DNA of 64,000 nt from Rhodothermaceae bacterium (lineage in GTDB: Bacteria > Bacteroidota > Rhodothermia > Rhodothermales > Bin80): assembly GCA_009838195.1 (NCBI GenBank), contig VXSC01000047.1, positions 214,219-278,218 on the forward strand, given 5' to 3'. A program made the position numbers and the translations under genes. The notes under the pieces are model-generated. The model did no database searches and was not told where the DNA came from. It was given only the letters and a program-made list of their open reading frames with translations. The first letter of the stretch is position 1; every line of letters begins with the position of its first letter. This document shows positions 38,135 through 61,578 of this stretch, piece by piece.

Positions 38135-38137
38135 AAC

Positions 38138-42517: not shown

Positions 42518-43378
42518 TTAAAATGATAGTTGATAGCTGATGGAAGGAAGAATTGGGAGTATCGAAAACTTCTTGAAGATTAGATCCCCATCCCCATCTC
42601 TTTCTGTAATGATACTGATGGCATTTCTGCGACTGTACGTATTGTAGGCGCCTATGGATAGCGTGCGTTTTACCCGTCCCAGCATTCGATGCCTACGCAA
42701 TCCAATATCCAGCCGATGATATGCCGGTAAACGTGCACCGTTGCGGGAACTTTGAATATCAAATTCAGAAAGCCCAAACCTCGATGAATATATGGAGTCC
42801 CACAAATGGGACGCGGAAACCATATATCCAACCGGCAATGTCACGGCTTGCCCAGTGCCATAAACCCATGTTGCACTGATATCAAACCGGGGATTTATTT
42901 CGTGGCTGATCACCACAGATGCATCATGGCGACGATCATATCGGTACGGGAACCAGCGGCCATTGTTGATTTTATCAAATTTCCGGCGACTCCACGACAG
43001 AGTATAGCCAACCCAGCCGGTTGTGCGCCCGGATTTCTTTTGAAAAAAGATCTCTCCGCCGTAGGCAAGGCCACGTCCGGCTTCAACACGGTCTTCCCAT
43101 GTACCACCAAAAACCGTATCAAAATAATCAGCACCCTCCTCATACTCAATCAGATTGCTCATTTTCTTAAAATACCCCTCAACGGACAGCTCGAACATTC
43201 CATCGAAAAGGGTACGAACGACCCCGCCTGCAACCTGCCACGATCTTTGAGGCTTGACTTTTGCGGTTGCAGGAACCCACAGATCTGTGGGTAGAGATAG
43301 TCCGCTGGTCGTTGCCAGTAGATGGATATACTGCTGCATGTAAGCGAACGATGCTTTCACACTGGTTCGTGAATTCAA
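42518..43378 (-). pseudogene. C-terminal fragment of TonB-dependent receptor (after in-frame TAG)
   Basis: This is the continuation, in the same frame, of the receptor that begins at 44899. It holds the last beta-strands of the barrel, from TSVKASFAYMQQYIHLL and LPTDLWVPATAKVKPQ to the aromatic end SYQLSF. The first possible start here is TTG at 43378, right after the stop, so it would not make a functional membrane protein alone. The sequence itself remains conserved in type, which suggests the stop is recent or is sometimes read through. Confidence 0.75.
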
Positions 43379-43381
43379 ATT

Positions 43382-44899
43382 CTACAACGCAGAAACTCGC
43401 GGCTCAACCGAAACATAGGTCCTTTCCTCAATCAAAAAACTTGATGCATGTACACCGAGGTTCAACCGAATTCTTGAGCTGAGGCGCCAGTCATCCTCAA
43501 AGTAGGCCTGGAACTCGCTCCCATTGGTGCGCCGATTCGGTGAAGCTGTCGAGTCGGTGATGGTGTTCCCAACCCGATAAATCTCTTCATAAGCGCCCGT
43601 CAAAAAGGAATGCTGCTGTGCTCCCACGCCGAAACGGAGACTATGGCTGGCATTCGGAATAAATTCCAAATCCACACGGGCATGTAGATCCTGAATTCCC
43701 GATTCATAGCGATCTTCCCATATATTGGCGACATTGTTTGAGGTGTATCTATATTTACCTTGCACAAGCAACGCGTAATTCGTATAGCCAACCAGGATAT
43801 TTGAAAACAGCCGCGCCCCAAAAATATGGTTCCATCGGGCTGTGGCGGTCAGGTTGCTCCAGTTCAGCGATTCTCTGTCTTCGTCTCCAAGAGAGTATTC
43901 GTACTGCGAATGGAGACGGTCAGCCCCCCAGTAACCGCTCAGATAGATTCGGTTTTTAGGATTGATAACCACATTGGTCTTCACATTTAGATCCGAGAAG
44001 TAATACCCAAAATCCTCATCGTCCGGAAGAAAAGGGCGAATCAACAAATCAGCATATGATCGGCGTGCAGAGACCAGAAAAGATGCACGATCGCGCTTGA
44101 TCGGACCCTCCAATGTGACGCGGGATGCAAGAAAGCCAATGGATCCCGTTCCTGCAAATCGCTTCATGTTTCCCTCCTTCATCGTCAAGTCAATCACCGA
44201 TGAAAGTCGCCCACCATAACGTGCAGGGAATCCTCCCTTTAGCAAACGCACATCCTTGATGGCATCGGAATTGAACGTACCCAAAAAGCCAAATAAGTGA
44301 CTCGGATTATAGACTTGGGTGCCGTCTAAGAGATAAAGATTCTGGTCTGGCCCACCTCCACGGACATAAAGCCCGGTAGATCCCTCAACACCTGACTGAA
44401 CTCCAGGCAAAAGTTGGATAATTCGTAATACATCGGTCTCTCCTAGAATTGATGGGAGGTTCTCAACATCCTTGACTGGAATAGAAATCGCACTCATCTG
44501 TGTTGTCTGGAGTGAGGATTCAGCAGTTGCAGTCACCTCCAGTTCTTCCAGAGCAAGCGTACTCGGTACCAACGAGATATCAAGTACAAGATCCTCCTGA
44601 GATGAGTATGTAAGTATTTGGGGAGTGTATGCAACGTGGCTGACAACCATACGCACGCTATCTCCAAGCAAGGTTAGACTGTAATAACCGTACTGGTTGG
44701 TGGTCCCTCCTACATTTTGAGCAGCCACATACAATGCAGCTCCAACGACCAACTCTCCAGTTTCGGAATCCGTTACGGTTCCACTAACCGTGATGGTCCC
44801 CTCCTGAGCAAATGCAACCGGTAAACATAGACCATAGCCAATGATCACCAGTACGATTGGAATCTTACTCATATTAATCCATTTTAGAACTTGGCCCAT
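43382..44899 (-). pseudogene. N-terminal part of TonB-dependent receptor, truncated by TAG at 43382-43384
   Basis: The N-terminus has a signal peptide (to about residue 32, VAFAQ), a carboxypeptidase-regulatory-like domain (about 35-115), a plug domain (VLRIIQLLPGVQSGVEGSTG, then YVRGGGPDQNLYLLDGTQVY) and the first half of the barrel. The frame ends at TAG after EPRVSAL, but continues open with NLNSRTSVKASF. The start at 44899 is supported by a strong Shine-Dalgarno site ten bases upstream. With the downstream part the product would have about 793 residues, typical for a SusC-like/DUF4249-linked receptor. Confidence 0.8.
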
Positions 44900-45210: not shown

Positions 45211-46971
45211 CTACTGACTCGGTGAGATAATGAATTCAGCCTCGCTGACCTCACTTTCCCTGTATCCGTATCGGATTGCTTTTGCGCGGAGCACGACGCT
45301 CTCCTGCAACCGGAGAGGAGAAGAGAACAATAGCCAGTCTCCCTCATTGCCCGAATCGTCAAGAACGGTATAGGTAATTGAAGCACCTTGCGTTCCACTG
45401 TACATCGTCACATCTACAGGATTGTCGAAGACGCCGCCACTCTGGGTATAATCCAATTCGCCAGACATGCTGATTGCGGTACGCGCAGTTGCTTGGGGCA
45501 GGATGACGGGAGCACTCGTGACAGGCTGCTCTCCACCGGGCCACATGGATTCAACCATATCCAGCTCAGACTTGAATCCCATGTCTCCGACCTCCACAAT
45601 CCAGTCATCCAAAGCAGTCTGCAGACGGGACAACTCATCGCTGTATGCAGGATCGTAAGCAAGATTGTTCACCTCGTGTGGATCTACACTCGTGTCGTAA
45701 AACTCATGTACAGGACGGCGTGGCTGCATCCACAATGATTGTGCTTCCGTCAATTCGCCGTTTGAATGTAGTCTGAAAAGCTCCTGCATCGTGGGCATCA
45801 CATTCGCATACGCCATCCACAATGCGTATGGCTTCTCCGGCCGATAATTGCGTATATACTTATACCGGGTATCCCGAACTGCCCGGACCAGATCATACTG
45901 CTCATCAAAGCGATCCCTCGCAGCATAAACATATTCATGTGGGGGGTTATTGTCTGCAAACCTGCCAAGAAGCGCCCTTCCCTGAATGTGGGCTGGGGGC
46001 TCAACCCCTGCGAGCGAAAGGACCGTAGGGGCAAGATCCAGAAAGCTCACCAACTCCTCATTAACTCCGGGAAGCTGACCCGGAATATGAATAATGAGCG
46101 GAACATGCAACCCCGAGTCGTACAGCCACCGCTTTTGCCGTGGCATCCCATCCCCATGGTCACTCCAGAAGAATACGATTGTATTCTCCGTCAACCCGTC
46201 CTCCGCCAACTGCTCTAGAACCATTCCAGCCTGCGCATCCATTTCTGCAATATTGTCGTAATGCTGTGCAATATCCCGTCGTACTACGGGTGTATCCGGG
46301 TAGTAGGGGGGAACCGCAACCGCTGCAGGATCGGTCGATAAGGGAGGTGGTGGAGGACCTGCCATTAAAGCCGGCAATCCCATGGTCTCAAAAGCCGCTG
46401 CCGGGTCCGGCCAGATCTGGCTCTCATGCGTCGTCGTGAAATTGAATACGGAAAAGAACGGTTGATCCGTATCCCGACGATTTCGCCAGTGTGCCTCCGA
46501 ACTGGACTCGTCCCATGCCGTGACCGGAGTTTCGAACTGATAGTCCTCCTTCACATTATTGGTCGTGTAGTAGCCTGCTGCGCGCAAGTACTCTGTGAAG
46601 GTTTTCACGTAATGGGGCGGAACCACGCTGTATGGCGCCGGCCCCGGCGCAAAAGGAGCTCCCGACAACGTTCGCATATGATGGGCACCAAAACTGACCT
46701 GATGCATTCCGGTGATGATCGCAGCACGACTCGGAGAGCACACGCCAGCTGTCGTGAATACACGCGTATAACGTGTGCCCAGGCTAGCAAGTGAGTCCAG
46801 GCGGGGTGTCCTGGTAATTTGATCCCCATAAGACCCAAGGCGTGGTCCCATATCCTCTGCAGAGATCCAGACGATATTGGGACGTTCTACAGGTTCCTCA
46901 GGTGTAATAGTAACTTCAGGTTCTGTGCACGCGCACAAAAGCAGCAGGATCAAAAAGGGTCGGATGTTCAT
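45211..46971 (-). CDS. Lipoprotein sulfatase (heparan N-sulfatase-like), last gene of the cytochrome operon
   Basis: The 586-residue product has a lipoprotein signal with lipobox LCAC (Cys15). The metal site is VWISAEDMGPRLGSYG, the formylglycine motif is CSPSR with Cys78, and FWSDHGDGMPRQKRWLYDSG is the second metal region. The HHMRTLSG loop and the C-terminal extra domain (about 490-580) match the paralog at 4926-6656. It overlaps the upstream DUF2231-cytochrome gene by four bases, which ties a classical sulfatase to the DUF1501/DUF1549 system. Confidence 0.92.
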   Translation of the reverse strand: MNIRPFLILLLLCACTEPEVTITPEEPVERPNIVWISAEDMGPRLGSYGDQITRTPRLDSLASLGTRYTRVFTTAGVCSPSRAAIITGMHQVSFGAHHMRTLSGAPFAPGPAPYSVVPPHYVKTFTEYLRAAGYYTTNNVKEDYQFETPVTAWDESSSEAHWRNRRDTDQPFFSVFNFTTTHESQIWPDPAAAFETMGLPALMAGPPPPPLSTDPAAVAVPPYYPDTPVVRRDIAQHYDNIAEMDAQAGMVLEQLAEDGLTENTIVFFWSDHGDGMPRQKRWLYDSGLHVPLIIHIPGQLPGVNEELVSFLDLAPTVLSLAGVEPPAHIQGRALLGRFADNNPPHEYVYAARDRFDEQYDLVRAVRDTRYKYIRNYRPEKPYALWMAYANVMPTMQELFRLHSNGELTEAQSLWMQPRRPVHEFYDTSVDPHEVNNLAYDPAYSDELSRLQTALDDWIVEVGDMGFKSELDMVESMWPGGEQPVTSAPVILPQATARTAISMSGELDYTQSGGVFDNPVDVTMYSGTQGASITYTVLDDSGNEGDWLLFSSPLRLQESVVLRAKAIRYGYRESEVSEAEFIISPSQ

Positions 46972-48488
46972 GAGCCGGTGGTATCGGGTTCAACGGGGGC
47001 AAGGCTTAAGCCGGTATTAATATAGAGATCGGGTAGAGCCGACTGCAACCGGGTTACCCCCGCGTCCGTGACCTCGGTCTGCCAAAGATAGATTGAGTTG
47101 AGTGCAGGCAGGTTTTCAAGATGAACCAGGCCGGAGTCCGTGACTGCCGTTCCATAGAGATTCAGGTATTCCAGGAATTCCAGATCGCTCAGATGAGCCA
47201 AGCCGGCGTCGGTCACGGACGTTTGTTGAAGGTGCAGGCGCGTCAGATGTGGTAGACCCGCAATGACCTCCACTAGGTCATCGCCAACCGGAGAACGTCC
47301 GAGATCAAGCCAGGCAATATTTGTAGACAATGGACGCAATGCTTCCTGCAGCCCACTCGCGTCTGTACATGTTTGTGGATCCACACAGCGTACCTGCAGA
47401 TAGGGCTCATTCTCGGCCAAAGGGGTAACGGACACACCCAAACTGGCAAGTTGGGCGACATCCATGGAATCAGGCGGAGTCGTATCCAAAGCAAAAATGC
47501 CTGTGCGGATTTCATCCAGACCCATATGATCCACGATCGTTTGCGTCACCGGAGACCATTCTACATCCGGTAATAACTCTTCAAAGGAAGCCCCGGCATC
47601 AATCCACCAGCGCAGCAGTTCGGCTTCTGCAATAGAGAGTTGTGGGCTTTCGGCGGGAGGCATCCGGTCATCCGAGCTTGCGGGTAGCCAAATACGGTGG
47701 ATCAGTTCGCTCTCATGTGCACGACCTGCAACAATCGGAGAACCATTGTCTCCACCCTCAGTGATAAACTCGGGCTCATCAAGGCGTAAGCCGCCCCGCT
47801 GCGCATCAGAGCCGTGACAGGCAGTACATCTGGCTTCCAGGATTGGAGCAATCAAAGCTGCATAGACCGTAGTCTCGGCAGGGTTCTCAAGTTGCAGACG
47901 CCCGATATCAGCTTTCTTGGGTAACCCTGCCACCTGACGTATACCGTCAGGCAGATAACGGGATAAGTGATCCGGGCCATGCGTAAGTACTCCTCCAAAA
48001 TGCCCGGTTAAGGCAACGGTCAGAAGCATGAACCCCACCGCGATCCCGTAAGCCCGGCGCTCCCAGTTCTTGAGCCAGCGCTCTGAAAGACCAGGCCAGG
48101 CTTTGTACAGGTATGCCAGCGCAGCGAATAGTACAACCAGGACTCCCATGCGCTTATGCCAAGCCAACTGGTCTGCAGCATACCCACCCCCTTGGGCTAG
48201 ATAGAGCCCTGCGGCTACAGCAAGGATGGAACTCCATACACCGATATACAGGAGAGCCAGAATGCCTGTGTCATAGCGCCCCCGGAGAGAAGGCCTGCGT
48301 GAAAGCCCCTCAAGCAGGGCAGCCACTACAAGAATCCCAATCGGCAGATGGACAACCATGGGATGGAACCGCCCCAAAAACAGAGTGAAATCACTCGGCT
48401 GACCACTACCGGGGACCATTATCAGCATGAACACCACAAAGGCGAGGCCCATGCATAACCAAATCAAAGATTGCTTCATAAAAATCAA
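46968..48488 (-). CDS. Membrane DUF2231 - cytochrome c - leucine-rich repeat fusion protein
   Basis: The 506-residue protein has an N-terminal helix and then a DUF2231-type membrane region (RFHPMVVHLPIGILVVAALL, with further helices to about residue 168; several His residues could bind heme b). A planctomycete-type cytochrome c domain follows, with CTACH (Cys221, Cys224, His225). The C-terminal third (about 385-495) has leucine-rich repeats of the type TDAGLAHLSDLEFLEYLNLY. It probably anchors electron transfer in the inner membrane, with the LRR part binding a partner. It starts six bases after a DUF1501 gene and overlaps the sulfatase by four bases. Confidence 0.85.
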   Translation of the reverse strand: MIFMKQSLIWLCMGLAFVVFMLIMVPGSGQPSDFTLFLGRFHPMVVHLPIGILVVAALLEGLSRRPSLRGRYDTGILALLYIGVWSSILAVAAGLYLAQGGGYAADQLAWHKRMGVLVVLFAALAYLYKAWPGLSERWLKNWERRAYGIAVGFMLLTVALTGHFGGVLTHGPDHLSRYLPDGIRQVAGLPKKADIGRLQLENPAETTVYAALIAPILEARCTACHGSDAQRGGLRLDEPEFITEGGDNGSPIVAGRAHESELIHRIWLPASSDDRMPPAESPQLSIAEAELLRWWIDAGASFEELLPDVEWSPVTQTIVDHMGLDEIRTGIFALDTTPPDSMDVAQLASLGVSVTPLAENEPYLQVRCVDPQTCTDASGLQEALRPLSTNIAWLDLGRSPVGDDLVEVIAGLPHLTRLHLQQTSVTDAGLAHLSDLEFLEYLNLYGTAVTDSGLVHLENLPALNSIYLWQTEVTDAGVTRLQSALPDLYINTGLSLAPVEPDTTGS

Positions 48489-48494
48489 CAGAAA

Positions 48495-49961
48495 TTAGGC
48501 CAGTACTTCATGTACTACATGGCCGTGCACATCGGTCAAGCGAAAGTCTCGACCCTGGAAGGGATAGGTTAACCGGAGATGATCAAACCCAAGCAAATGC
48601 AAGATCGTCGCCTGAAGATCATGAACATGCACCCGGCCGCTTACTGCGCTGTAGCCAATCTCGTCGGTCTCGCCGTGTGTCATACCTCCCTTAACTCCAC
48701 CACCGGCCATCCACATGGTGTACACATCGCTATGATGATCCCTCCCGACGAAGGGGTTATCCGAGCCGGTACGGTTTTCCAGCATCGGAGTCCGACCGAA
48801 TTCTCCACCCCAGATGACCAGAGTTTCGTCAAGGAGTCCCCGCTGCTCCAGGTCGTTCAAGAGCGCTGCAACGGGACGGTCTGTCTCTTGGCAGCGTTCT
48901 ATGAAACCCCCAGTCAGGGACTCACTCTCTCCGGCTCCGTGTGAGTCCCATCCCCAGTGGAATAGCTGAACAAAACGGACACCCCGCTCGACGAGTCTTC
49001 GCGCCAGGAGACAGTTGTTGCTAAACGCGGTCTCTCCAGGCTCTGTGCCGTACATCTCATGGATATATGCAGGCTCACGACTGATGTCCATCGCGTCCGG
49101 GACGGACGTTTGCATCCGGAATGCCATCTCGTATTGCGCGATCCGGGTGAGGATCTCCGGGTCCCCAACCTCCCCGTGCTGCTGCCGATTGATCGTATTG
49201 ATGGCATCAATTGATTTGCGCCGTAAACTGCGCGGTACCCCGTCCGGGTCTCCGAGAAAAAGCACAGGATCTCCACTGGTCCTGCACTGGACTCCTTGAT
49301 AGACAGTAGGCAGAAATCCACTCCCGTAAACGCTGGCGCCCGCATCCGGGGCTGCTCCTCCCGAAAGCAGGACAACAAACCCAGGTAGATTGTCATTTTC
49401 AGTCCCCAGCCCGTACGTGACCCAAGAGCCCATGCTGGGACGACCCAACCGGGGACTTCCCGAATGAACCAGTAGTTGTGCCGGAGCATGATTGAACTCG
49501 TCAGTGTGCATGGCCTTCAAAAACGCGACCTTATCGGCAACCTGCCCCAGGTATGGCATATGATTCGAGATCCATGCCCCTGATTCTCCGTGCTGCTGAA
49601 ATGTTGCCTGAGGCCCCAACATCTTTGGGATCCCCCGGATAAAGGCAAACCGCTTCCCCTCCAGAAGAGACTCTGGGCAGTCCTGGCCATGCAGGCGTGC
49701 AAGTTCAGGCTTGTAGTCAAACAACTCAAGTGGGGAAGGCCCGCCCGCCATATGGAGAAAGATGACCCGTTTGGCACGTGGTGTAAAATGCGGACCTCGG
49801 GAGGTAAGTGGATCCCGGGGACCGGTAGAGGTCGCTCCGAGCGACGCAAACGCGAGGGCCCCAAACCCTGCACCCGCCGACTTCAGAAAATGGCGCCGTG
49901 TGACATGACCCAAATAGATATCACGAGCTTCTTTAGCAAGATTCATTTGTGCTCTCTTCAC
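48495..49961 (-). CDS. DUF1501 protein, Tat-exported (pair 1)
   Basis: The 488-residue protein has a twin-arginine signal (TRRHFLKSAGAGFGALAFAS). Alkaline-phosphatase-superfamily landmarks of DUF1501 follow: FLHMAGGPSPLELFDYKP, GWDSHG, GGEFGRTP, GRDHH and VHDLQATILHLLG; Asp and His residues in these are likely metal ligands. It differs more from the other two copies in the operon than they do from each other. It is separated from its cytochrome partner by a 39-base gap, the only wide junction in the operon. The activity of DUF1501 is not established. Confidence 0.9.
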   Translation of the reverse strand: MKRAQMNLAKEARDIYLGHVTRRHFLKSAGAGFGALAFASLGATSTGPRDPLTSRGPHFTPRAKRVIFLHMAGGPSPLELFDYKPELARLHGQDCPESLLEGKRFAFIRGIPKMLGPQATFQQHGESGAWISNHMPYLGQVADKVAFLKAMHTDEFNHAPAQLLVHSGSPRLGRPSMGSWVTYGLGTENDNLPGFVVLLSGGAAPDAGASVYGSGFLPTVYQGVQCRTSGDPVLFLGDPDGVPRSLRRKSIDAINTINRQQHGEVGDPEILTRIAQYEMAFRMQTSVPDAMDISREPAYIHEMYGTEPGETAFSNNCLLARRLVERGVRFVQLFHWGWDSHGAGESESLTGGFIERCQETDRPVAALLNDLEQRGLLDETLVIWGGEFGRTPMLENRTGSDNPFVGRDHHSDVYTMWMAGGGVKGGMTHGETDEIGYSAVSGRVHVHDLQATILHLLGFDHLRLTYPFQGRDFRLTDVHGHVVHEVLA

Positions 49962-50000
49962 TGAGATGGATGCTATCTAATGTGTTCTTCAGAATTGAAG

Positions 50001-52469
50001 TTACTCTTTCATGAGAAACTGATCAAGATTCAGGATCGCATTAGCGACAATGGTGAGTGCTGCCAATTCCGCAGACTCGTGATCCCCGATCAACCGGGCA
50101 GCGTCTTCGGCGCCTTCTATATAATGCGTGAGCGCATCCGTGTACAAGGCGGTCAATACATCCAGGGCTTCACGGTCCGGAGAGGTTCCCATAGCATAGA
50201 TATATCCTGCCTTAACTGGATCCTCGGCCGCTTGCATCCCCTCTGCCAGTGCCTGTGCCGCTTCAATAAATACGGGATCATTCAGAGAAACCAGCGCCTG
50301 CAGGGGCGTGTTGGTTCGGATCCTTCGGGATACACAAAATTCGCGACTAGGGCTATCAAAGGTCGCCATGGATGGGTATGGGACGGTGCGTCTCCAGTAG
50401 GTATATATCGCGCGTCGGTAGCGGTCATCCCCTTCACTGGTTCGCCACTGGCGGCTGTCATACGGATTTCTCCAGAGTCCTTCCGGCTGGGGCGGCATCA
50501 CGCTCGGCCCGTACATCTTCGAACTCAATAGACCACTCACATGCAGTGTCTGGTCCCGAATCTGCTCCGCACTCAGGCGAAAACGAGGCCCGCGTGCTAG
50601 ATACCGGTTACGAGGATCTGTCTGCAGTAACTCATCCGTCACGTGCGATGACTGGCGGTAGGTTGCCGAAAGGACGATCATGCGCAGAAGAGATTTAACA
50701 CTCCAGTCATGGTCCTCCACGAAACTGATCGCTAAATAGTCCAGAAGTTCTGGATGTGATCGCTCCAGCCCCTGGGTTCCAAAATCTTCCAACGACTCCA
50801 CCAGACCAATGCCAAACAGCTGCTCCCAGAATCGGTTGACCGTCACACGAGCTGTCAGGGGATTTTCACCGCTAACCAGCCACTCTGCCATCCCCAGACG
50901 ATTCCGAGGAGCATTCTCCGACATGGCAGGCAATACATCCGGGGTATCTGGATGCACGACTTCTCCTTTCAAAAGAAAGCTTCCTCGCTCAAGTACATGC
51001 GTCCGGCGCTGGAATGGAAGTTCCTGCATGACCGGGGTATGGATGGGGTTTAATGCTCGCAGTTCGCGCTCTTTTTCCGCTCTCTCTTCCCGTAAACGCA
51101 CAATCACTGGATCATCACTCAGACCGGCATAGACATAATCAAGAGTCCATCGCTGCGCATCCCCTCGCTCGGTCTCCAGCGTTGCCACGACCCGTTTAAC
51201 CTCGTTCTGCAGCATAAGCCGGACCTGTCCGATCACTTCAGGCTGATCCAGGGTCGTTTCCCATGTACGGCGCTGACGGGCCAGTGAATCCGAGCGAACC
51301 CGGGCAATCATCGCCTCTTCCAAGCGGGCAATCTCTTGGAGGAGTGCCTCACCCTCTGCAGCCATCTCCTCTTCAAATAAGGGAAGGGTCGGAAATTCAC
51401 TGTCCAGATCACGGTCTGCCGTGCTGTTGAAAAAGGCAAAAAATTCGTAATACTCCTCGTGCACAAATGGATCATAAGGATGCCCGTGACACTGAACACA
51501 CGCAAAAGACGTCCCCTGCCATACCTCCCAGGTCGTATTCACCCGGTCAATGACAGCAGCTGTCCGGAACTCCTCGTCATCGGTTCCCCCTTCCGTGTTA
51601 GTCATTGTATTTCGATGAAACGCGGTCGCAATCAACTGGCTTTCAGTCGCCTCTGGCAGCAGATCTCCCGCCAACTGCTCAATCGTGAATTGGTCAAAAG
51701 GCATGTCTTCATTGAATGCCCGAATGACCCAGTCCCGGTAACGCCATATCGTTCGACCGACATCTTTTTCATATCCCTTGGAGTCTGCGTACCGCGCAAG
51801 GTCCAACCACATCGCTGCCCACCGCTCGCCATACGCAGGCGAAGATAGAAGTGAATCCACATACGTTTCGTACGATGCTTCGTCTGTACACACCTGTTTC
51901 ACATTATCCGGCTTTGGCGGCAGCCCCGTCAGATCCAGTGTAACTCTTCGTACCAGAACCGGACAAGCTGCCTCGGGCTGCGGAAGTAGATCCCTCTGAT
52001 CCAATTGGGCAAGAACAAAGTGGTCAATGGGCTCACGAACCCACTCCGGCTCCGATACATCCGGCAATGGGGGACGCTCTGGAGCAACATACGCCCAATG
52101 ATCCTCCCAATGTGCACCCTGCTCAATCCAGGTTTGTAGCGTTTGGATTTCATCAGGCGTGAGCGGCTGCTCATCCTTGGGCATTCGATGGGCTGGATCG
52201 GTGTGTGCGACGCGCCGCAAAAGCTCACTTTCTGAAGGCTCAAAGGGAACGATGGCACGCTCTCCAGACTCCGCTGTGGAGAGGGCCTCATGCCGGAAGA
52301 GCAAACTCAACTCTCCCTGCCGCCGAATTCCCCCATGACAATTTACGCACCGCTCATTCAGAATGGGGCGAACCTGTTCGTTAAAACTAACTTGTGGAGC
52401 ACGCTGACAGCCCCCAAGCAGAAACGCTGCCGCAGGTAACACCACAAGGATTACCCAAAGGTTTTTCAT
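50001..52469 (-). CDS. Cytochrome c lipoprotein, PSCyt1-DUF1549-DUF1553 (pair 1)
   Basis: The 822-residue protein has a lipobox LGGC (Cys21) and a planctomycete-type cytochrome domain with CVNCH (Cys41, Cys44, His45). DUF1549 covers about 130-340 and includes a second heme motif CVQCH near its end. DUF1553 covers about 540-790 ([44 protein letters not shown]). Unlike its two homologs in the operon it lacks a LamG-type insert between these domains. It is exported and lipid-anchored. It overlaps the upstream DUF1501 gene by four bases. Confidence 0.92.
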
Positions 52470-53881
52470 GCAAATAATGGTGTCATCACAGTCCCATGAA
52501 CATCCGTGAGGCGAAAACGACGCCCCTGATACCTAAATGTAAGACGTTCATGGTCAATCCCCAACAGGTGCATAAGGGTTGCCTGCAGATCGTGTACATG
52601 CACCGGATCCCGGACAATATTATATCCGAGATCGTCCGTCTCACCGTAGCTCAACCCACTCCGGATCCCGCCACCTGCCATCCATAGCGAGAAGCATCTC
52701 GGATGATGATCCCGACCATAATCTATGTCTGTCAACCGTCCTTGACAGTAGTTCGTACGCCCAAATTCTCCTCCCCAGATGACCAGTGTGTCATCCAGCA
52801 TCCCGCGCTGCTTCAGGTCCTGCACCAGCGCAGCCGAAGGCTGATCCGTTTCCTTTGCCTGGACTTGAATTCCGGCTGGTAGCCCCCCATGATGATCCCA
52901 CCCTTGGTGAAAGAGCTGAATGAAGCGTACCCCGCGTTCCGCCAGACGCCTGGCCAACAAACAGTTGGCGGCAAACGTGCCGGGTTCCCGGGCATCCTCG
53001 CCATAAAGATCAAAGATGTATTCCGGCTCATTCGAGAGATCCATCACCTCAGGCACGGAGGTCTGCATCCGGTAAGCCATTTCATACTGGGCGATCCGGG
53101 ACTCAATACGCTCCCAGCCAGGGCTCCCTTCTTTGAGGGTATGCAGCTGGCGCAACCGGTCCAATTGCATTTTCCGCTGTGCCGACGACACGCCATCTGG
53201 ATTACTTAAGTACAGCACGGGATCTTGTCCGCTTCGAAATTGCACGCCTTGGTGCTGCGAAGGCAGGAACCCATTCCCCCAAAGCCGTGCATACAATGGC
53301 TGTCCTCCCTTGTCCTTGGTGATCAGCACACAGAATGCCGGTAGGTTTTCGTTTTCTGTTCCGAGCCCGTAGCTAAGCCATGACCCAAAGGATGGTCGAC
53401 CGGCAATCTGTGAGCCCGTAAGGAAAAATGTAATGGCTGGATCATGGTTGATCGCTTCGGTATGCATGGACTTGACAAAGCAAAGTTCATCCGCAACCTT
53501 CGCTGTATAGGGCATCAACTCACTGACCCATGCACCGCTTTCTCCGTGCTGGGCAAAGGAAAAATGGGAGCGAGCCAACGGGAGCGTGTTCTGAAACCCC
53601 GTCATCCCGGTCAACCGCTGTCCCTTTCGAACCGACTCCGGCAGCTCCTGCCCGTGCATCGCATTGACCTTGGGCTTATAATCAAACAGCTCGAACTGTG
53701 AGGGGCCACCACTCTGAAAGAGGTAGATAATTCGCTTGGCACGCGGGACCACATCCGGATCAGCTGCCATCACCGGATTGACCAGGGAAGACAACGCAAG
53801 CCCACCCAGCCCCATACCGAGCCGCTCCAGAAACTCCCTGCGTGTGCTGAGAGGATTATAATTGCAACACTCGTGCATCAA
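52466..53881 (-). CDS. DUF1501 protein, Tat-exported (pair 2)
   Basis: The 471-residue protein has a twin-arginine signal (STRREFLERLGMGLGGLALS). It has the DUF1501 landmarks YLFQSGGPSQFELFDYKP, GWDHHG, GGEFGRTNY, GRDHHPRC and VHDLQATLMHLLG. It is very similar to the copy at 56999-58459 over the whole length, which points to duplication of the pair. It overlaps genes on both sides by four bases, so expression is tightly coupled to the cytochromes. Confidence 0.92.
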   Translation of the reverse strand: MMHECCNYNPLSTRREFLERLGMGLGGLALSSLVNPVMAADPDVVPRAKRIIYLFQSGGPSQFELFDYKPKVNAMHGQELPESVRKGQRLTGMTGFQNTLPLARSHFSFAQHGESGAWVSELMPYTAKVADELCFVKSMHTEAINHDPAITFFLTGSQIAGRPSFGSWLSYGLGTENENLPAFCVLITKDKGGQPLYARLWGNGFLPSQHQGVQFRSGQDPVLYLSNPDGVSSAQRKMQLDRLRQLHTLKEGSPGWERIESRIAQYEMAYRMQTSVPEVMDLSNEPEYIFDLYGEDAREPGTFAANCLLARRLAERGVRFIQLFHQGWDHHGGLPAGIQVQAKETDQPSAALVQDLKQRGMLDDTLVIWGGEFGRTNYCQGRLTDIDYGRDHHPRCFSLWMAGGGIRSGLSYGETDDLGYNIVRDPVHVHDLQATLMHLLGIDHERLTFRYQGRRFRLTDVHGTVMTPLFA

Positions 53882-56800
53882 TATTTCTCAATCGACTCAT
53901 CAAAAGATAACAGTGTGCTCGCAATCATAGTATGCGCGGCCCACTGTGCAAGGTTCGATCCCTGTTCCAGGGGAGATTCTCCAATTTCCAGTAATTGTCT
54001 CGCGGACTCCGGGTTCCGAGAAAAGAGTTCAAACTGTTCCCGATACAATGCTTTGAGGGTCTGCGTTTCGGGGGGCGTTGGACTTCGCCCCGTCAGCGCC
54101 CGAAATCCCAACTCAATCTGCCCCTCGAGCGTACCCTCTTTCAGCATACGAGCGGACAGATGACGCGCAGCCTCCACATATTGGGGATCATTCAACAGAA
54201 CCAAGGCCTGCATGGGAGTCGCCGTCCGCTGACGGCGCAGTACACACTGTGCCCGTGTCGGCATATCGAACGTGATCAACGAAGGGGGCGGCGAGGTGCG
54301 CTTAAAGAATGTGTACAGCGTGCGCCGATAGAGGTCCCTGCCCGAGCTCTGATCATACTGGATCCCGGACTTCTCTTCCCAAAGACCCTCTGGCTGGTAC
54401 GGCTTCACGGGAGGTCCTCCCAAGGTTTGGTCAAGTAATCCACTGACTGCGAGCGCCTGATCACGAATCATTTCGGCACTCAGGCGAAGCCGGGGTCCCC
54501 GGGCTAATTGCTCATTTCCTGGATCAAATGCCAAAAGTTCAGCTGTGGGCTCGGATCGCTGCCGATACGTGGCGCTGGTCACAATCAGTCGCTGCATGGC
54601 TTTGATATCCCATCCAGACTCTATGAAGGTCGTCGCCAGATAATCAAGGAGTTCCGGAAATGATGGCAATGCACCCTGTCGTCCAAAATCTTCGGGTGTT
54701 GACACAATCCCCGTCCCAAAATATTTTTGCCAGTGCCGGTTCACCGCGACACGCGCGGTAAGAGGATGCACAGGACTAAAGAGCCACTCTGCCAATCCGA
54801 GTCGATTTCGCGGCAGGTCGTCGGGCAGCGGCAGAATAGCCTCCGGCGTGTGTGCTTCAACTTGTGCGCCTAGGGCATCGTACTGACCACGCTCCAGGAC
54901 GTGTGCCACACGCGGGGCGTGCATCTCCTGCATGACCATGATTTCCGGGATGCCCTTCAGGAGTGTATTTTCCTCTTCACGTAGATCCTGGAGGATCACA
55001 TGTGAGCGTTGCCACGGGACCACTTCATGGGCAAGATACCACCGGAACATGTCCTCTGAATCCAGTGGTGCATCCAGGTTCCCGGCCAGTCGGGCAACCT
55101 CAAAACCATACAGCACGCGATCATACAGCTCAAGCTCATCCACTGCCCCATCTCGCAATCCGCTATCTCTGAATCGATACCCAATCTGAAGTGGTACCTC
55201 CATTGTATCATACGTAATGTGACGCGTCAGGCCATCACGAATGACCTCCACCTCGGCGGGGAGGCCATCTATGTAGAGACGCAGACCGGAAGCACGACTG
55301 GATCCGTCATACGTCATTGCGACATGTGTCCAATCCTCGAGCGGGACGGTAGCGGTTGTTTGAATGCGTACGGAGTTTTCCGGCCACATATGGGCCAGTT
55401 GCGCAACTAGGTGACCACGATCAAGTGCCAGCTCCCAGCCCCGGCTGCCTGCGTCAAGGGCAGCCTGTGTCCGATGGATGATCAGCCCCGTCTCCTCCCC
55501 AGGGTTGATCCAGATACTGACCGAAAACGGCGTGGTCCGCTCGAATTCCTGCACATCCGTAAACAGGAAACCGCTTTCGCCGTCAAAAGCCATTGCATTG
55601 CCGGTATGGCCGGGCACTACGGTCGGACTAAAGACAGCCTCTCCCCTCTTGTTTCCATTGCACTGGAGGATCTCTCCATTCAGAGATTCAAATTCACACT
55701 GAAGGATCGGAGAGGATTGAAAGCCAGGGGGCACGGATGGGCTCCAGGATTCAAAGCGTGCTCTTGAGGCTTCAGTCAGATCTAAAACAGCGCGCTCTGC
55801 TGCTTTGATTTCCCGAGCTAAACGATCTAGTTCATCCTCTTGATCTGGATTTGGCAGATCCATTGCTGGGACCGGTACTGCGTCAGTAAAATGGGAAGTC
55901 TGCCCCGACTCGTCTACACTATTGAAAAAGGCAAAGAGCCCATAGTAATTGCCCTGCGTGATCGGGTCGTACTTATGATCATGACACCGCGCGCACTCAA
56001 GCGTCAGGCCCATGAATGCAGTTCCAAGTGTATTGACGCGGTCAGCCACGTACTCGGTCCGGAACTCTTCCTCTATGCTGCCTCCCTCATTGGTCTGCCG
56101 GTGATTCCGATTGAAGGTCGTGGCAAGCCGTTGCTCCAGGGTTGCGCCCGGCAACAGATCGCCTGCGAGTTGCCACGTTCCAAATTCATTGAATGGCAGG
56201 TTTTGGTTGTATGCGCTCACCACCCAGTCACGCCATGGCCATACGTAGCGATCCCGGTCATTCTGGTAGCCATGCGTATCTGCATATCTGGCAATATCAA
56301 GCCACGCCGAGGCCATATGCTCTCCGTAGGCCGGTGAATCCAATAGCCGATCCACCACCTTTTCGTAGGCATTCGACGAGGTATCTGACAAGAAAGCATC
56401 CAGCTGTTCCAGCGTCGGAGGGAGCCCCGTCAGATCAAGGGTAACCCGCCGAAGGATGGTACTTCGTGTTGCCTCTGGAGAAGGAGTAAATCCCTGTTGT
56501 TCAAGATTCGACAGAATGAAATAATCAATCGCATTGTTTGGCCAGTCAGATTGTTCTACTGTAGGTAGGTCGGAATACGTTGGCACAAGAAAGCTCCAGT
56601 GGGGTTTCCACTCAGCCCCCTGATCAATCCAGCGGGCAATCATCGCAATCTCGTGATCCGAAAGGGACAGGTTTGACTCCGGCGGAGGCATCTGGAACTC
56701 TGCATCCTCGGAATGAATCCGCGAATACAGCCGACTTTTTTTGAGATTTCCCGGGACGATTGCATATCCACCCGAGATCAATTTTGTCTGTTTTGCTGTG

Positions 56801-57030
56801 GATTCCTCATCCAGACGCAAATCGGCCTGTCGGGCATTGGCATCAGGTCCATGGCAGGCATAACAGCGATCAGACAGGATGGGGCGGATATGGAAATTGT
56901 AATCAACAACCTCTGGCAGCGCCGCATGGTCGGTGTGGGATGCGCGACCGCATCCCATACTCACAAGCAACAGAAGACAACCTGCAAGACGCAAGTTGTC
57001 AGGCCAAAAGATCCTTAACGACATGACCAT
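53878..57030 (-). CDS. Cytochrome c lipoprotein with LamG insert, PSCyt1-DUF1549-LamG-DUF1553 (pair 2)
   Basis: The 1,050-residue protein has lipobox SMGC (Cys27; the start may be the ATG at 57024) and cytochrome motif CYACH (Cys56, Cys59, His60). DUF1549 lies at about 145-350 and contains a second heme motif CARCH in the segment CARCHDHKYDPI. A concanavalin-like LamG domain lies at about 455-630 (GNAMAFDGESGFLF, FSVSIWINPGE), and DUF1553 at about 740-1000. LamG domains bind carbohydrate, so the protein may bring heme chemistry to a glycan. It overlaps the DUF1501 gene before it by 32 bases. Confidence 0.92.
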   Translation of the reverse strand: MVMSLRIFWPDNLRLAGCLLLLVSMGCGRASHTDHAALPEVVDYNFHIRPILSDRCYACHGPDANARQADLRLDEESTAKQTKLISGGYAIVPGNLKKSRLYSRIHSEDAEFQMPPPESNLSLSDHEIAMIARWIDQGAEWKPHWSFLVPTYSDLPTVEQSDWPNNAIDYFILSNLEQQGFTPSPEATRSTILRRVTLDLTGLPPTLEQLDAFLSDTSSNAYEKVVDRLLDSPAYGEHMASAWLDIARYADTHGYQNDRDRYVWPWRDWVVSAYNQNLPFNEFGTWQLAGDLLPGATLEQRLATTFNRNHRQTNEGGSIEEEFRTEYVADRVNTLGTAFMGLTLECARCHDHKYDPITQGNYYGLFAFFNSVDESGQTSHFTDAVPVPAMDLPNPDQEDELDRLAREIKAAERAVLDLTEASRARFESWSPSVPPGFQSSPILQCEFESLNGEILQCNGNKRGEAVFSPTVVPGHTGNAMAFDGESGFLFTDVQEFERTTPFSVSIWINPGEETGLIIHRTQAALDAGSRGWELALDRGHLVAQLAHMWPENSVRIQTTATVPLEDWTHVAMTYDGSSRASGLRLYIDGLPAEVEVIRDGLTRHITYDTMEVPLQIGYRFRDSGLRDGAVDELELYDRVLYGFEVARLAGNLDAPLDSEDMFRWYLAHEVVPWQRSHVILQDLREEENTLLKGIPEIMVMQEMHAPRVAHVLERGQYDALGAQVEAHTPEAILPLPDDLPRNRLGLAEWLFSPVHPLTARVAVNRHWQKYFGTGIVSTPEDFGRQGALPSFPELLDYLATTFIESGWDIKAMQRLIVTSATYRQRSEPTAELLAFDPGNEQLARGPRLRLSAEMIRDQALAVSGLLDQTLGGPPVKPYQPEGLWEEKSGIQYDQSSGRDLYRRTLYTFFKRTSPPPSLITFDMPTRAQCVLRRQRTATPMQALVLLNDPQYVEAARHLSARMLKEGTLEGQIELGFRALTGRSPTPPETQTLKALYREQFELFSRNPESARQLLEIGESPLEQGSNLAQWAAHTMIASTLLSFDESIEKY

Positions 57031-58459
57031 GTACGTCTGTCAATCGATATCGGCGTCCCTGGTGTCGGAAGGTGAGCCGTTCATGTTCAATCCCAAGGAG
57101 ATGGAGTACGGTTGCTTGAAAATCGTGCACGTGAACCGGATTCTCAGTGATATTGTACCCCAGTTCGTCCGTGGCCCCGTACGTGAGTCCCGGCTTGACT
57201 CCCCCTCCCGCCATCCAGATCGTAAAGCATCTTGGATGGTGATCCCGGCCGTAATTGGTTTCCGTGAGTGTGCCTTGCGAATAATTGGTACGACCGAATT
57301 CTCCACCCCAGATCACCAGGGTATCCTCCAGCAGGCCCCGCTGTTTCAGGTCTGTGACCAGCGCTGCAGATGGTTGGTCCGTATCCTTGCATTGCAGTGC
57401 AATATCTTTGGGGAGATTTCCGTGCTGATCCCATCCCATGTGATACAGCTGAATGAAGCGTACGTCGCGCTCGGCCAGGCGCCGAGCTAGAAGGCAATTG
57501 GCCGCGTACGTTCCCGGGGTGCGGGCCGCTTCTCCGTAAAGCTCAAAGGTAGACTCAGGTTCATCCGACAGATCCGTGACATCCGGCACCGATGTTTGCA
57601 TGCGGTACGCCATTTCATACTGGGCAATCCGTGACTGGACTGCAGGATCCCCACTCGTCTGGTAATGCATTTCGTTCAGGCGGGCTAGGTGCCGGAGCAT
57701 ACTGCGCCGGTCCCCGGCATCAAGACCAGGCGGATTATTGAGGTACAGAACCGGATCTGCACCCGAACGAAACTGGACACCCTGGTGCAGGGCCGCTAGA
57801 AACCCGTTCCCCCATAAGCGGGAATAGATTGGCTGCGGACGTTGGAGTCCACGAGACAAGAGAACGCAAAAGGTGGGTAAATCTTCATTGGCACTACCCA
57901 GACCATAACTCAGCCAGGCACCCATACTTGGGCGACCCGGTTGCTGCGAACCCGTCTGAAAAAATGTGATGGCCGGATCGTGGTTGATCGCCTCTGTATA
58001 CATAGACCGTACGATACAGAGTTCGTCGGCAATCTCGGAGGTATACGGAAGTAAATCACTGATCCATGCGCCGCTGTTTCCATGCTGGGCAAATGGATAG
58101 ATCGTAGGTGCCAGAGGAAGAGAGTTCTGATAGGCGGTCATACCGGTCAGACGCTGTCCCATTCGGATCGACTCTGGCAGGTCCTGTCCTCGTCGCAGGT
58201 GCAGGTCAGGCTTATAATCAAAGAGCTCCAGTTGCGAGGGACCTCCACTTTGAAAAAGATAAATTATCCTGCGTGCTTTGGGAGCAAGATGCGGTGAATT
58301 CAGAACTCCCTGGAAGCCTGAACTCGCAGCCAGTTGGTCCGAGGTATGTCCACATCCCATTAGAGATGCGAGAGCTGCGCCACCGATTCCAAGACTGAGT
58401 TTCGAAAAGAAATGCCGGCGGTTCATCTGGCATCCGACATCGCAGATCAGGTCATTCAT
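56999..58459 (-). CDS. DUF1501 protein, Tat-exported (pair 3)
   Basis: The 486-residue frame starts as an ATGA overlap with the gene before it. The twin-arginine signal begins at residue 12 (MNRRHFFSKLSLGIGGAALA), so ATG 58426 is also possible. The landmarks are YLFQSGGPSQLELFDYKP, GWDQHG, GGEFGRTNY, GRDHHPRC and VHDFQATVLHLLG. It is the nearest relative of the pair 2 copy. Folded export by Tat fits a protein that gains a metal cofactor in the cytoplasm. Confidence 0.92.
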   Translation of the reverse strand: MNDLICDVGCQMNRRHFFSKLSLGIGGAALASLMGCGHTSDQLAASSGFQGVLNSPHLAPKARRIIYLFQSGGPSQLELFDYKPDLHLRRGQDLPESIRMGQRLTGMTAYQNSLPLAPTIYPFAQHGNSGAWISDLLPYTSEIADELCIVRSMYTEAINHDPAITFFQTGSQQPGRPSMGAWLSYGLGSANEDLPTFCVLLSRGLQRPQPIYSRLWGNGFLAALHQGVQFRSGADPVLYLNNPPGLDAGDRRSMLRHLARLNEMHYQTSGDPAVQSRIAQYEMAYRMQTSVPDVTDLSDEPESTFELYGEAARTPGTYAANCLLARRLAERDVRFIQLYHMGWDQHGNLPKDIALQCKDTDQPSAALVTDLKQRGLLEDTLVIWGGEFGRTNYSQGTLTETNYGRDHHPRCFTIWMAGGGVKPGLTYGATDELGYNITENPVHVHDFQATVLHLLGIEHERLTFRHQGRRYRLTDVHGHVVKDLLA

Positions 58460-61400
58460 CGATATTGGGCTTCGTCAAGATTCATGATTGTACTAGTTAC
58501 AACGGTCATCGCCGCCAGTTGCACAACCTTTGTATTCTGCCGGCGCGGACTGACCCCAACGGAGACCAGATCCTGCGCACCGGACGGATCCTGTTCAAAC
58601 TCAACGACCTGCTCCCGAAACAGGTCCAACAAAGCGTCCAGTTCTACCTCTTCCGGCATCCTGGAGGTCAGCCAGCGAAATGCCGTTGCGATCTGCTGCC
58701 GCTCGTCTAATGATTCGCGGGTACGGACACGAGAAGCCAACGCACGGGCTGCTTCCACGTATTGCGGATCATTCAGGAGCACCAGAGACTGTAATGGAGT
58801 GGCCGTCGTCTGCCGCTCTACGGTACAAACGGAGCGCTCAGGAGCGTCAAAGGTAAGCATTGCCGGTGGTGGGATCGTGCGCTTCCAGTATGTATAGAGG
58901 CTGCGCCGGTGCATATCTGGACCGGGTCGGTAACGATTTTCGCCGATCTGATTGGCAAGTGCTCTCCAGAGACCTACTGGTTGATAGGGGCGTAAAGGTT
59001 CGCCGCCCAGTGCCGAATTCAGCAGACCACTCACCGACAGTGCATTGTCCCGTATCATTTCGGCAGATAGCCGCTTCCGAGGCGCGCGGGCCAATAGAAG
59101 GTTGTCTGGATCCCGCTGCTGAAGAGTTCGCGTAACCTGGTTGCTTTGCCTATATGTAGAGGACATGACGATCTCCTTGATGAGTGCCTTGATGTCATAT
59201 CCTGATTCGATAAATGTTATTGCCAGATAATCAAGTAATTCTGGGTGAGAAGGAAGAGCACCCTGATTCCCAAAGTCTTCCGGTGTACTTACCAGGCCTG
59301 CTCCAAAGAGGAGTTGCCACAATCGATTTACCGCAACGCGTGCAGTCAGAGGATTCTCTTGATGGGTCAACCATTGTGCCAGCCCTAACCGATTACGTGG
59401 GAAGTCCTCAGGAAAAGGGAGGATCGCGGTTGGGGTTGCTGGACCGACCGAATCCAATGGTGCATCATAGGCGCCACGATCCAGAACATGCGTCGTGCGT
59501 GGAGTGGGCATCTCTTCCATGATCATCACGTTCGGGATGCGCCTGACGCTGCGCCGCAGGCTATCTAACACCACGTTCACGGCTTGGAATGCATGGTCAT
59601 AATGTGCCTGGTAGTGATGAGCAGCCTGGGGAAAGGATGTCTGTCCTGCCAGGTGGGCAACTTCAATGTCCGTGAGTACCCTGGCATGTGTATAGAGCTC
59701 ATCTAAAGCCCCACCGCTCATCCCCTCAATCTCATCAATGGTACGATTCCGGGGAGTCCAATGACCCGCCAGGAGTCCATTACCATTCAGAATACTTTCA
59801 CGATCAAGTGTGTCCTCAAGAACATGGACTCCACTTCGAATGCCGTTCAGATATAAATGTACGCCCTCTGCCCGCCCACTTCCATCGTACGTAGCGGAAA
59901 CATGAACCCATGTATCCGGCGGAAATGTGCGGGCTGATTCAACAGAAATTTGGTGCTCCCCATCATGAATTAACCGGAACCGAAGCCGGCCCTCTTTTGT
60001 CCGCGCGAGATCATAGCCACTGCGTTTTTGCTCGCCATTTCGCTTGGAAAGTAGGGCGACATCTTTAGTTTGATCTTTTGCAAGTACCCATGTACTTAAA
60101 GAGAACCGGTTGAACCACTCAAAATCAGCCTCCAGCCCGATGTTCAAAAAATTCTGCCCATTAAATTCAAACGCCCCGCCTTGCATTCCACCGACAACTA
60201 CTGGCGGGTCAAGTACTTTTTCGAGCCCCGTATTGACCATCGCATCAGTATGTGCAAGAGAGGTAAGGTTTTCCAAAGGCAGAAAAGTCAAGAGCGCAGA
60301 CTCTATCGTGGTAGCGGGATCCGGCATCCACTCGGACGGCGGAGAAGGTTGAGGCCAGGAGGCAAGCACCTGTTCGAGTGAGTCGATGCTTGCCTCTGTC
60401 TGCAGGATGGATGCTTCCAGTTCCGGATCTTCTAGCCGTATGGAAGGCCTTGGTGAGAGATCGAAATAACTGATCTGCGCCTGCTCATCTATGCCGTTGA
60501 AGAATGCAAACATGCTGTAATACTCTTCCTGCAAAATTGGGTCGTACTTGTGGTCATGGCACCTGGCACACTCCATAGTAAGCCCCAGAAATGCCGTCGC
60601 AGTGGTATTGGTGCGATCTGCAACATACTCAGTCAGATACTCTTCCGCGACTACGCCTCCTTCCTGGGTGATCGCATGATTGCGATTGAACCCGGTTGCA
60701 AGCCGCTGATCAAATGTCGCATCTGGAAGCAGATCACCCGCGATCTGCCATATCACAAAATCATCGTACGGAAGATTTTCGTTGAATGCACGCATCACCC
60801 AGTCGCGCCACGGCCACATGGTTCTTGGCCGATCGTCTTGATATCCATGTGTATCTGCATAACGAGCGACGTCCAGCCACATGGAGGTCATACGTTCTCC
60901 GTATGCAGGACGCGCCAGGAGCTGATCTACAACACGTTCATAGGCATCGGGGCGACGATCTTCCTGAAAAGCATCCAGTTCTGCCGGAGTTGGTGGCAAG
61001 CCTGTTAAATCGAACGTTACACGACGAAGCAGCTTGGCGCGACTTGCCTCTGTTGATGGAGACAGACGCGCGGATTCGATCTTTTGCAATATAAAGTAGT
61101 CAATTGGGCCACGAGCCCAATCATCGTGATCCACTTCGGGAAGTGTTGACTCTGCAGGAGGGATGAAGGCCCAATGTCGCTTCCAGTCGGCACCCTGATC
61201 AATCCATTGCCGAATAAGTCCAATCTCCCGCTGGGAGAGGGATAAATTGCTCTCCGGCGGAGGCATGCGTCGTTTAGGATCCTCACTGGTGATGTGCTCT
61301 ATCAAGAGACTGGAAGCAGCATTGCCCGGGGTAATGATCCGAAGGGTTGAGTCTTCCCTACTAGTTCCATAGGCCCCCTCACGGGTGTCAAGCCGCAACT

Positions 61401-61578
61401 CCGCCTTCCGAACCTGGTCATCCGGGCCATGACACTTGTAGCAGCGGTCCGACAGGATTGGCTTGATATGCCAATTATAGTCTACGGTAGCCGGCAGGGC
61501 AGATGGATCAGAAGATGATTGACTGCACGCTGCCAAAAGGAGGAGGACTAAGGGCCAAGTGAACCGGAAAATGGACAC
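58456..61578 (-). CDS. Cytochrome c lipoprotein with LamG insert, first gene of the operon (pair 3)
   Basis: The 1,040-residue protein has lipobox LAAC (Cys18), a PSCyt1 domain with CYKCH (Cys46, Cys49, His50), and DUF1549 (about 150-350) holding the second heme motif CARCH (Cys337, Cys340, His341). A LamG domain follows (about 455-620; FSLSTWVLAKDQ, HVSATYDGSGRAEG), then DUF1553 (about 735-1000). Domain order and length match the pair 2 cytochrome. As the first gene it defines the operon promoter, which should lie in 61579-61794. The role may be redox at an outer-membrane glycan-binding complex; this is inference. Confidence 0.92.
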   Translation of the reverse strand: MSIFRFTWPLVLLLLAACSQSSSDPSALPATVDYNWHIKPILSDRCYKCHGPDDQVRKAELRLDTREGAYGTSREDSTLRIITPGNAASSLLIEHITSEDPKRRMPPPESNLSLSQREIGLIRQWIDQGADWKRHWAFIPPAESTLPEVDHDDWARGPIDYFILQKIESARLSPSTEASRAKLLRRVTFDLTGLPPTPAELDAFQEDRRPDAYERVVDQLLARPAYGERMTSMWLDVARYADTHGYQDDRPRTMWPWRDWVMRAFNENLPYDDFVIWQIAGDLLPDATFDQRLATGFNRNHAITQEGGVVAEEYLTEYVADRTNTTATAFLGLTMECARCHDHKYDPILQEEYYSMFAFFNGIDEQAQISYFDLSPRPSIRLEDPELEASILQTEASIDSLEQVLASWPQPSPPSEWMPDPATTIESALLTFLPLENLTSLAHTDAMVNTGLEKVLDPPVVVGGMQGGAFEFNGQNFLNIGLEADFEWFNRFSLSTWVLAKDQTKDVALLSKRNGEQKRSGYDLARTKEGRLRFRLIHDGEHQISVESARTFPPDTWVHVSATYDGSGRAEGVHLYLNGIRSGVHVLEDTLDRESILNGNGLLAGHWTPRNRTIDEIEGMSGGALDELYTHARVLTDIEVAHLAGQTSFPQAAHHYQAHYDHAFQAVNVVLDSLRRSVRRIPNVMIMEEMPTPRTTHVLDRGAYDAPLDSVGPATPTAILPFPEDFPRNRLGLAQWLTHQENPLTARVAVNRLWQLLFGAGLVSTPEDFGNQGALPSHPELLDYLAITFIESGYDIKALIKEIVMSSTYRQSNQVTRTLQQRDPDNLLLARAPRKRLSAEMIRDNALSVSGLLNSALGGEPLRPYQPVGLWRALANQIGENRYRPGPDMHRRSLYTYWKRTIPPPAMLTFDAPERSVCTVERQTTATPLQSLVLLNDPQYVEAARALASRVRTRESLDERQQIATAFRWLTSRMPEEVELDALLDLFREQVVEFEQDPSGAQDLVSVGVSPRRQNTKVVQLAAMTVVTSTIMNLDEAQYR

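Follow-up and report, generated by a model that had tools for sequence, protein, structure and literature searches.

An eight-gene operon of heme lipoproteins, DUF1501 proteins and a sulfatase in a Rhodothermaceae bacterium, and its probable link to the use of sulfated sugars

Genes that combine the PSCyt1, PSCyt2 and PSD1 domains have been described from Planctomycetes and Verrucomicrobia, with LamG or other carbohydrate-binding inserts, an adjoining partner gene and sulfatase genes as frequent neighbours (PMC5615132; PMC2754498). In Verrucomicrobia, He et al. (2017) reported that PSCyt genes lie near sulfatases and carry carbohydrate-binding domains, and suggested that their functions mirror those of glycoside hydrolase (GH) genes via a different reaction (PMC5615132); a Rhodopirellula PSD1/DUF1549 gene has been discussed among common stress responses (PMC2754498). 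Our literature searches found no biochemistry for DUF1501 or PSD1, nor any reaction assigned to either. A DUF1501 protein exported by the Tat pathway together with a large partner protein of unknown function is also known from the DUF1501-DUF1800 pairs (PMC5122149), but the partner there is DUF1800 while at the locus described here it is a heme lipoprotein. A distant DUF1501 paired with DUF1800 is encoded on contig 44 of genome G000 (L034:6313-9571).

The locus lies in a 64,000-nucleotide stretch of the genome of a Rhodothermaceae bacterium (the window). It shares the PSCyt1, PSCyt2 and PSD1 domains with the genes of Planctomycetes and Verrucomicrobia but belongs to Bacteroidota, comprises three tandem pairs, a DUF2231-PSCyt1-LRR gene and a sulfatase, all in one direction, and occurs in a genome with few copies (6 PSD1 and 7 DUF1501 matches), in contrast to the dozens of PSD1 and DUF1501 genes present there. 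The operon occupies exactly positions 45211-61578 on the minus strand, and its eight co-directed genes are, from 61578 down to 45211:

58456..61578, minus strand: PSDa, lipoprotein of 1040 aa with PSCyt1, DUF1549 (PSCyt2), LamG and DUF1553 (PSD1); CYKCH at 46, CARCH at 337
56999..58459, minus strand: DUF1501 type c (DUF1501c), 486 aa; Tat signal MNRRHFF
53878..57030, minus strand: PSDb, lipoprotein of 1050 aa with PSCyt1, DUF1549, LamG and DUF1553; CYACH at 56, CARCH at 346; overlaps DUF1501c by 32 bases
52466..53881, minus strand: DUF1501 type b (DUF1501b), 471 aa; Tat signal STRREFL
50001..52469, minus strand: PSDc, lipoprotein of 822 aa with PSCyt1, DUF1549 and DUF1553 and without LamG; CVNCH at 41, CVQCH at 324; first gene of the triad
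48495..49961, minus strand: DUF1501 type a (DUF1501a), 488 aa; Tat signal TRRHFL; second gene of the triad
46968..48488, minus strand: CYTL, 506 aa; DUF2231 membrane domain (conserved His 42, 47 and 111), then PSCyt1 (CTACH at 221) and an LRR region; third gene of the triad
45211..46971, minus strand: sulfatase lipoprotein of 586 aa; formylglycine (fGly) motif CSPSRAAIITG (Cys78), SGSH_C, chitobiase-like C-terminal domain; nearest solved structure S1_8A

The junctions measure, in gene order, -4, -32, -4, -4, +39, +6 and -4 bases. An earlier sequence-only reading had given every one of these overlaps and gaps correctly but spoke of nine genes; since its own seven junctions are all exact, the number is eight. 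Its domain assignments were borne out by Pfam. All three PSD proteins contain PF07635, PF07583 and PF07587 in this order and above cut-off, with two CxxCH motifs each (CYTL has one), and LamG (PF13385) is found in two of them; PF07394 covers the full length of the three DUF1501 proteins (E<1e-150); CYTL matches PF09990 and PF07635, with LRR matches under the curated cut-off; the sulfatase matches PF00884 and PF16347. A lipobox is predicted by eye on all PSD proteins and the sulfatase, twin-arginine signals were read in the same way on each DUF1501 protein, and the genome encodes TatC. Scans for promoters and terminators gave results at or near shuffle level.

Searched for across genomes, as had been proposed, the gene order recurs in the genus and the family. 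It is identical over the eight genes in G003 and G002, and in other genomes of genus and family (L047-L061) it varies by additional tandem PSD/DUF1501 copies, by gaps or losses, or is cut by contig ends. Because of this recurrence, and because the dN/dS values of all eight genes relative to G003 lie between 0.03 and 0.09 (strong purifying selection, lowest for DUF1501), the operon is not a chance arrangement. One PSDb copy within the tandem array of G008 appears split into two frames (L050:13158-16256), and in G001 the operon is broken between DUF1501a and CYTL by an insertion of 4.6 kb with permease-like and ATPase-like frames (L051:3467-8075).

The core of the operon is the triad PSDc, DUF1501a and CYTL, which spans the order and much of Bacteroidota. 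Other families of the order have it (L062, L064, L067, L074-L081), and so do many other Bacteroidota families, there with a DUF1501 identity of 63-68%. At the 22 loci L093-L114, all outside the window's family, a PSDc relative directly adjoins DUF1501a in 21, and a CYTL relative is found on the side of DUF1501a opposite PSDc in 14 (1.5 kb flank). DUF1501a usually has an adjoining PSD gene in PVC genomes too. The CYTL homologue of L040 has no DUF2231 part and that of L038 is cut by a contig end. The two pairs with LamG, b and c, are order-level paralogues and are amplified in G004, G007, G009 and G011. At five loci of the same order (L076, L077, L078, L080 and L081) the neighbour of the triad, in head-to-head orientation, is a Tat-type NHL/six-bladed propeller gene (L078:12442-13503).

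The sequence-only reading had also suggested that the operon was acquired by transfer. In a DUF1501 tree of 82 sequences (a quick tree with SH-aLRT support, no bootstrap and some long branches), the operon DUF1501a groups in a clade made up of Bacteroidota alone (SH-aLRT 100), in which family nests within order and order within class, and types b and c fall in an order-level clade. Since DUF1501a belongs to one Bacteroidota clade, recent transfer is without support, and the tree rejects a recent transfer from PVC bacteria. A recent import of the whole operon from Planctomycetes or some other PVC group is thus highly improbable: the seven non-Bacteroidota genomes that were searched do have very high DUF1501 copy numbers (13-81 matches against 7 here), but both clades and the occurrence of the triad in many Bacteroidota families speak against it. 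An ancient exchange with PVC bacteria predating the Bacteroidota radiation would be compatible with the same data, the contradiction applying to recent transfer. The core of the gene set is old and common across the phylum.

What DUF1501 does is less easily read. Its proposed place in the alkaline phosphatase/sulfatase superfamily holds with respect to the fold. Sulfatase and DUF1501 profiles align, in the C-terminal part only, with an E value of 4.5e-5 (hhalign), and a Foldseek search with the DUF1501 model returned S1 sulfatases (best E 2.9e-6), a match that is credible mainly because hhalign agrees, as the model itself is weak (pLDDT 61). The idea that it attacks sulfate in the manner of a sulfatase is not supported. 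The CxPSR fGly motif is absent from DUF1501 by motif check and profile alignment, and the calcium-binding SDHG of sulfatases aligns with GEFG, so that the metal site is altered; an ordinary S1 sulfatase, with C/S-x-P-S-R and SD(H/N)G, is ruled out. By eye, an NHxPA stretch (N157 conserved in 96% and H158 in 100% of sequences) looks like the equivalent of the fGly motif position. D143, D339, H341, D361, E387, R390, H409, D433 and D448 are fully conserved, and DUF1501 looks like an active protein with a different chemistry rather than a conventional sulfatase. Sequence searches found no solved-structure homologue of either DUF1501 or PSD.

In the PSD proteins, C41, C44, H45, C324, C327 and H328 are invariant in the alignment, as H42, H47 and H111 are conserved in the DUF2231 part of CYTL. 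The model of PSDc (822 aa; pLDDT 74.6, pTM 0.77) is mostly helical, and a Foldseek comparison with the PDB gave nothing below an E value of 1 and no functional hint. The PSD fold might be new, a provisional statement since the alignment contained 12 sequences.

The terminal gene encodes a true sulfatase, as had been recognized. With an intact CxPSR motif, PF00884 and two FGE-family genes in the genome it qualifies as an S1 formylglycine sulfatase. By sequence similarity among solved sulfatases, its best PDB match is S1_8A (E 7e-83, residues 28-478), and the five best matches (9bb9, 9bes, 9bbd, 9bba and 9bef) are all S1_8. These solved relatives take part in the breakdown of lambda-carrageenan; they have been described as 2-O-sulfohydrolases, and the substrate of S1_8A is the monosaccharide galactose-2-sulfate (PMC12549532). 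The likeness to the Pseudoalteromonas enzyme (9bb9/9bes), by sequence alone, extends to the fGly motif and the SGSH_C region, but the operon sulfatase has an additional chitobiase-like C-terminal domain, is a predicted lipoprotein and is not accompanied by carrageenan GH genes. Where a genome of the family has both CYTL and the sulfatase, the latter in most cases comes after CYTL, and the two often overlap by 4 bases; in G010 and G012 the sulfatase still accompanies DUF1501a-CYTL even though these have no adjoining PSD gene, and it is absent from G014. In other Bacteroidota families none of 21 loci with relatives of the sulfatase has a PSD, DUF1501 or CYTL gene within 1.5 kb and, since these relatives never adjoin the triad genes, the sulfatase is a family-level recruit added to the conserved core.

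Downstream of the sulfatase, after a gap of 311 bases, lie:

43382..44899, minus strand: TonB-dependent receptor, N-terminal part, ending at an in-frame stop
42518..43378, minus strand: TonB-dependent receptor, C-terminal part, in frame with the N-terminal part
41457..42512, minus strand: DUF4249 protein, following the receptor

The stop, at codon 506 of 793, interrupts the receptor (42518-44899), which is either a pseudogene or the product of an assembly error. In G007 the gene is intact and homology to it begins 12 bases past the sulfatase stop; receptor homologues are also found downstream in G001, G002, G004, G008 and G009, and the TonB receptor/DUF4249 pair downstream of the operon is a genus-level feature. 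The arrangement is not a SusC/SusD-type polysaccharide utilisation locus: the window proteins scanned include the TonB receptor and DUF4249 but lack SusD, and among them no classical GH or lyase for polysaccharides adjoins the operon.

A wider association emerged from 68 Bacteroidota genomes, of which 29, outside the window's family, carry DUF1501 and 39 do not. The non-carriers were sampled from genomes named in the order and class, with others taken at regular steps. Carriers have a median of 17 sulfatase matches against 1 in non-carriers (AUC 0.94; a sulfatase count of 28 means at least 28), of 11 against 0 for PF06439 (AUC 0.97) and of 4 against 0 for the GH2 N-terminal domain (AUC 0.70). 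In a size-matched set the AUC values were 0.90, 0.93 and 0.47, respectively. Exact permutation within the four families containing both kinds of genome gave p = 1.6e-4 for sulfatases and 1.7e-5 for PF06439, and no association for GH2 (p = 0.66). These results show association and not mechanism, and GH2 as the single GH family makes a thin control. PF06439 is the 3-keto-disaccharide hydrolase that acts on 3-keto sugars in periplasmic oxidation pathways, alongside the LacABC dehydrogenase (PMC9007349). The window's genome has 10 PF06439 matches, about 24 sulfatase matches and the 2 FGE genes. The PF06439 matches all lie elsewhere in the genome and the operon itself contains no dehydrogenase or PF06439 gene; the resemblance to the LacABC pathway, a predicted periplasmic sugar oxidation whose hydrolase counts track DUF1501, concerns other proteins and is an analogy of mechanism only.

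The sequence-only reading had proposed a redox-assisted attack on sulfated glycans. Its link to sulfated glycans is upheld by the sulfatase kept at the operon end through the family and by the sulfatase-rich carriers, and its redox flavour is supported because the association with PF06439 is even stronger than that with sulfatases and absent for GH2; DUF1501 as a sulfatase-like attacker of sulfate and the transfer are the parts that found no support. As the core is old, phylum-wide and travels with genes for the oxidative dismantling of sugars, the gene set probably helps to break down sulfated sugars. We tentatively favour, as a reading with a little less than an even chance of being right, an envelope-anchored periplasmic electron-transfer module for the oxidative (3-keto type) breakdown of sulfated glycans. 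The LamG lipoproteins would hold the glycan at the envelope, and DUF1501, Tat-exported, with its alkaline-phosphatase/sulfatase fold and its own invariant D/E/H/R set, would be the catalytic subunit that handles the substrate in each pair. The S1_8-like sulfatase would remove a 2-O-type sulfate and so clear the sugar for oxidation, most likely by the 3-keto route with dehydrogenases and PF06439 hydrolases encoded elsewhere. Electrons could then pass through the two hemes of the PSD protein to the c-heme and membrane histidines of the DUF2231 protein and on to the respiratory chain, and fragments might be taken up by the TonB receptor/DUF4249 pair. Several observations count against such a module: the sulfatase is outside the phylum-wide core and missing in G014, other families of the order flank the triad with other genes such as the NHL propeller, the operon of G001 contains the 4.6 kb insertion, and the dehydrogenase/PF06439 link is genome-wide and correlational.

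It is also conceivable, though rather unlikely, that DUF1501 is itself a hydrolase of the alkaline phosphatase superfamily whose nucleophile is not fGly or whose metal site differs, and that the PSD heme lipoproteins dock it to its substrate or sense the redox state while no electrons are drawn from the glycan. The sulfatase-like fold, the lowest dN/dS of the operon and the many invariant polar residues (D143, H158, D339, H341, E387, R390 and H409 among them) would all suit such an enzyme; the missing CxPSR and the changed metal-site residues would not, two invariant heme motifs per PSD protein seem costly if merely structural, and the association is with 3-keto hydrolases rather than with GH2. 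We consider it somewhat less probable again that the genes form a general respiratory, envelope electron-transfer or stress system, in which case the sulfatase would have become fixed beside them by chance in one family and the co-occurrence would be a matter of lifestyle. Elsewhere in the order and phylum the triad does lack the sulfatase, the co-occurrence is correlational and the Rhodopirellula PSD1/DUF1549 gene figures among common stress responses (PMC2754498), but the sulfatase is kept beside DUF1501a-CYTL in G012 and G010, two PSD proteins contain LamG domains, and the contrasts within families hold for sulfatases and PF06439 and not for GH2. Beyond the electron-transfer module that we favour, it is a doubtful idea that the PSD1-DUF1501 pairs represent a new class of heme-linked glycan oxidoreductase, in which DUF1501, a sulfatase-fold enzyme without formylglycine chemistry, would carry out another reaction on sulfated sugars and PSD1, for which no solved fold was matched, would remove the electrons.

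The general idea is not new, given the precedents published for Verrucomicrobia in 2017 (PMC5615132) and for the PF06439 pathways (PMC9007349); what is new here is that the triad is conserved and spread across the phylum, and that the co-occurrence follows a specific pattern. With three core genes and a plausible route for electrons out through the membrane, the compact version in Bacteroidota makes the problem smaller, and it points to a specific partner pathway, 3-keto sugar chemistry with sulfatases and not GH2-type hydrolysis. If true, it would help to account for the ability of abundant bacteria to open up sulfated polysaccharides on which ordinary hydrolases fail.

The remainder of the window contains further sulfatase genes as well as arylsulfotransferase genes. 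A second sulfatase at 4926-6656 on the plus strand has the same architecture (SGSH_C and a chitobiase-like C-terminus) and is 45-48% identical to that of the operon, and more sulfatases are found at 11312, 14591 and 22178. Two tandem arylsulfotransferase (ASST, PF05935) genes lie in the same sulfatase-rich region at 36581-39874 on the plus strand, the second with a Por secretion tail.
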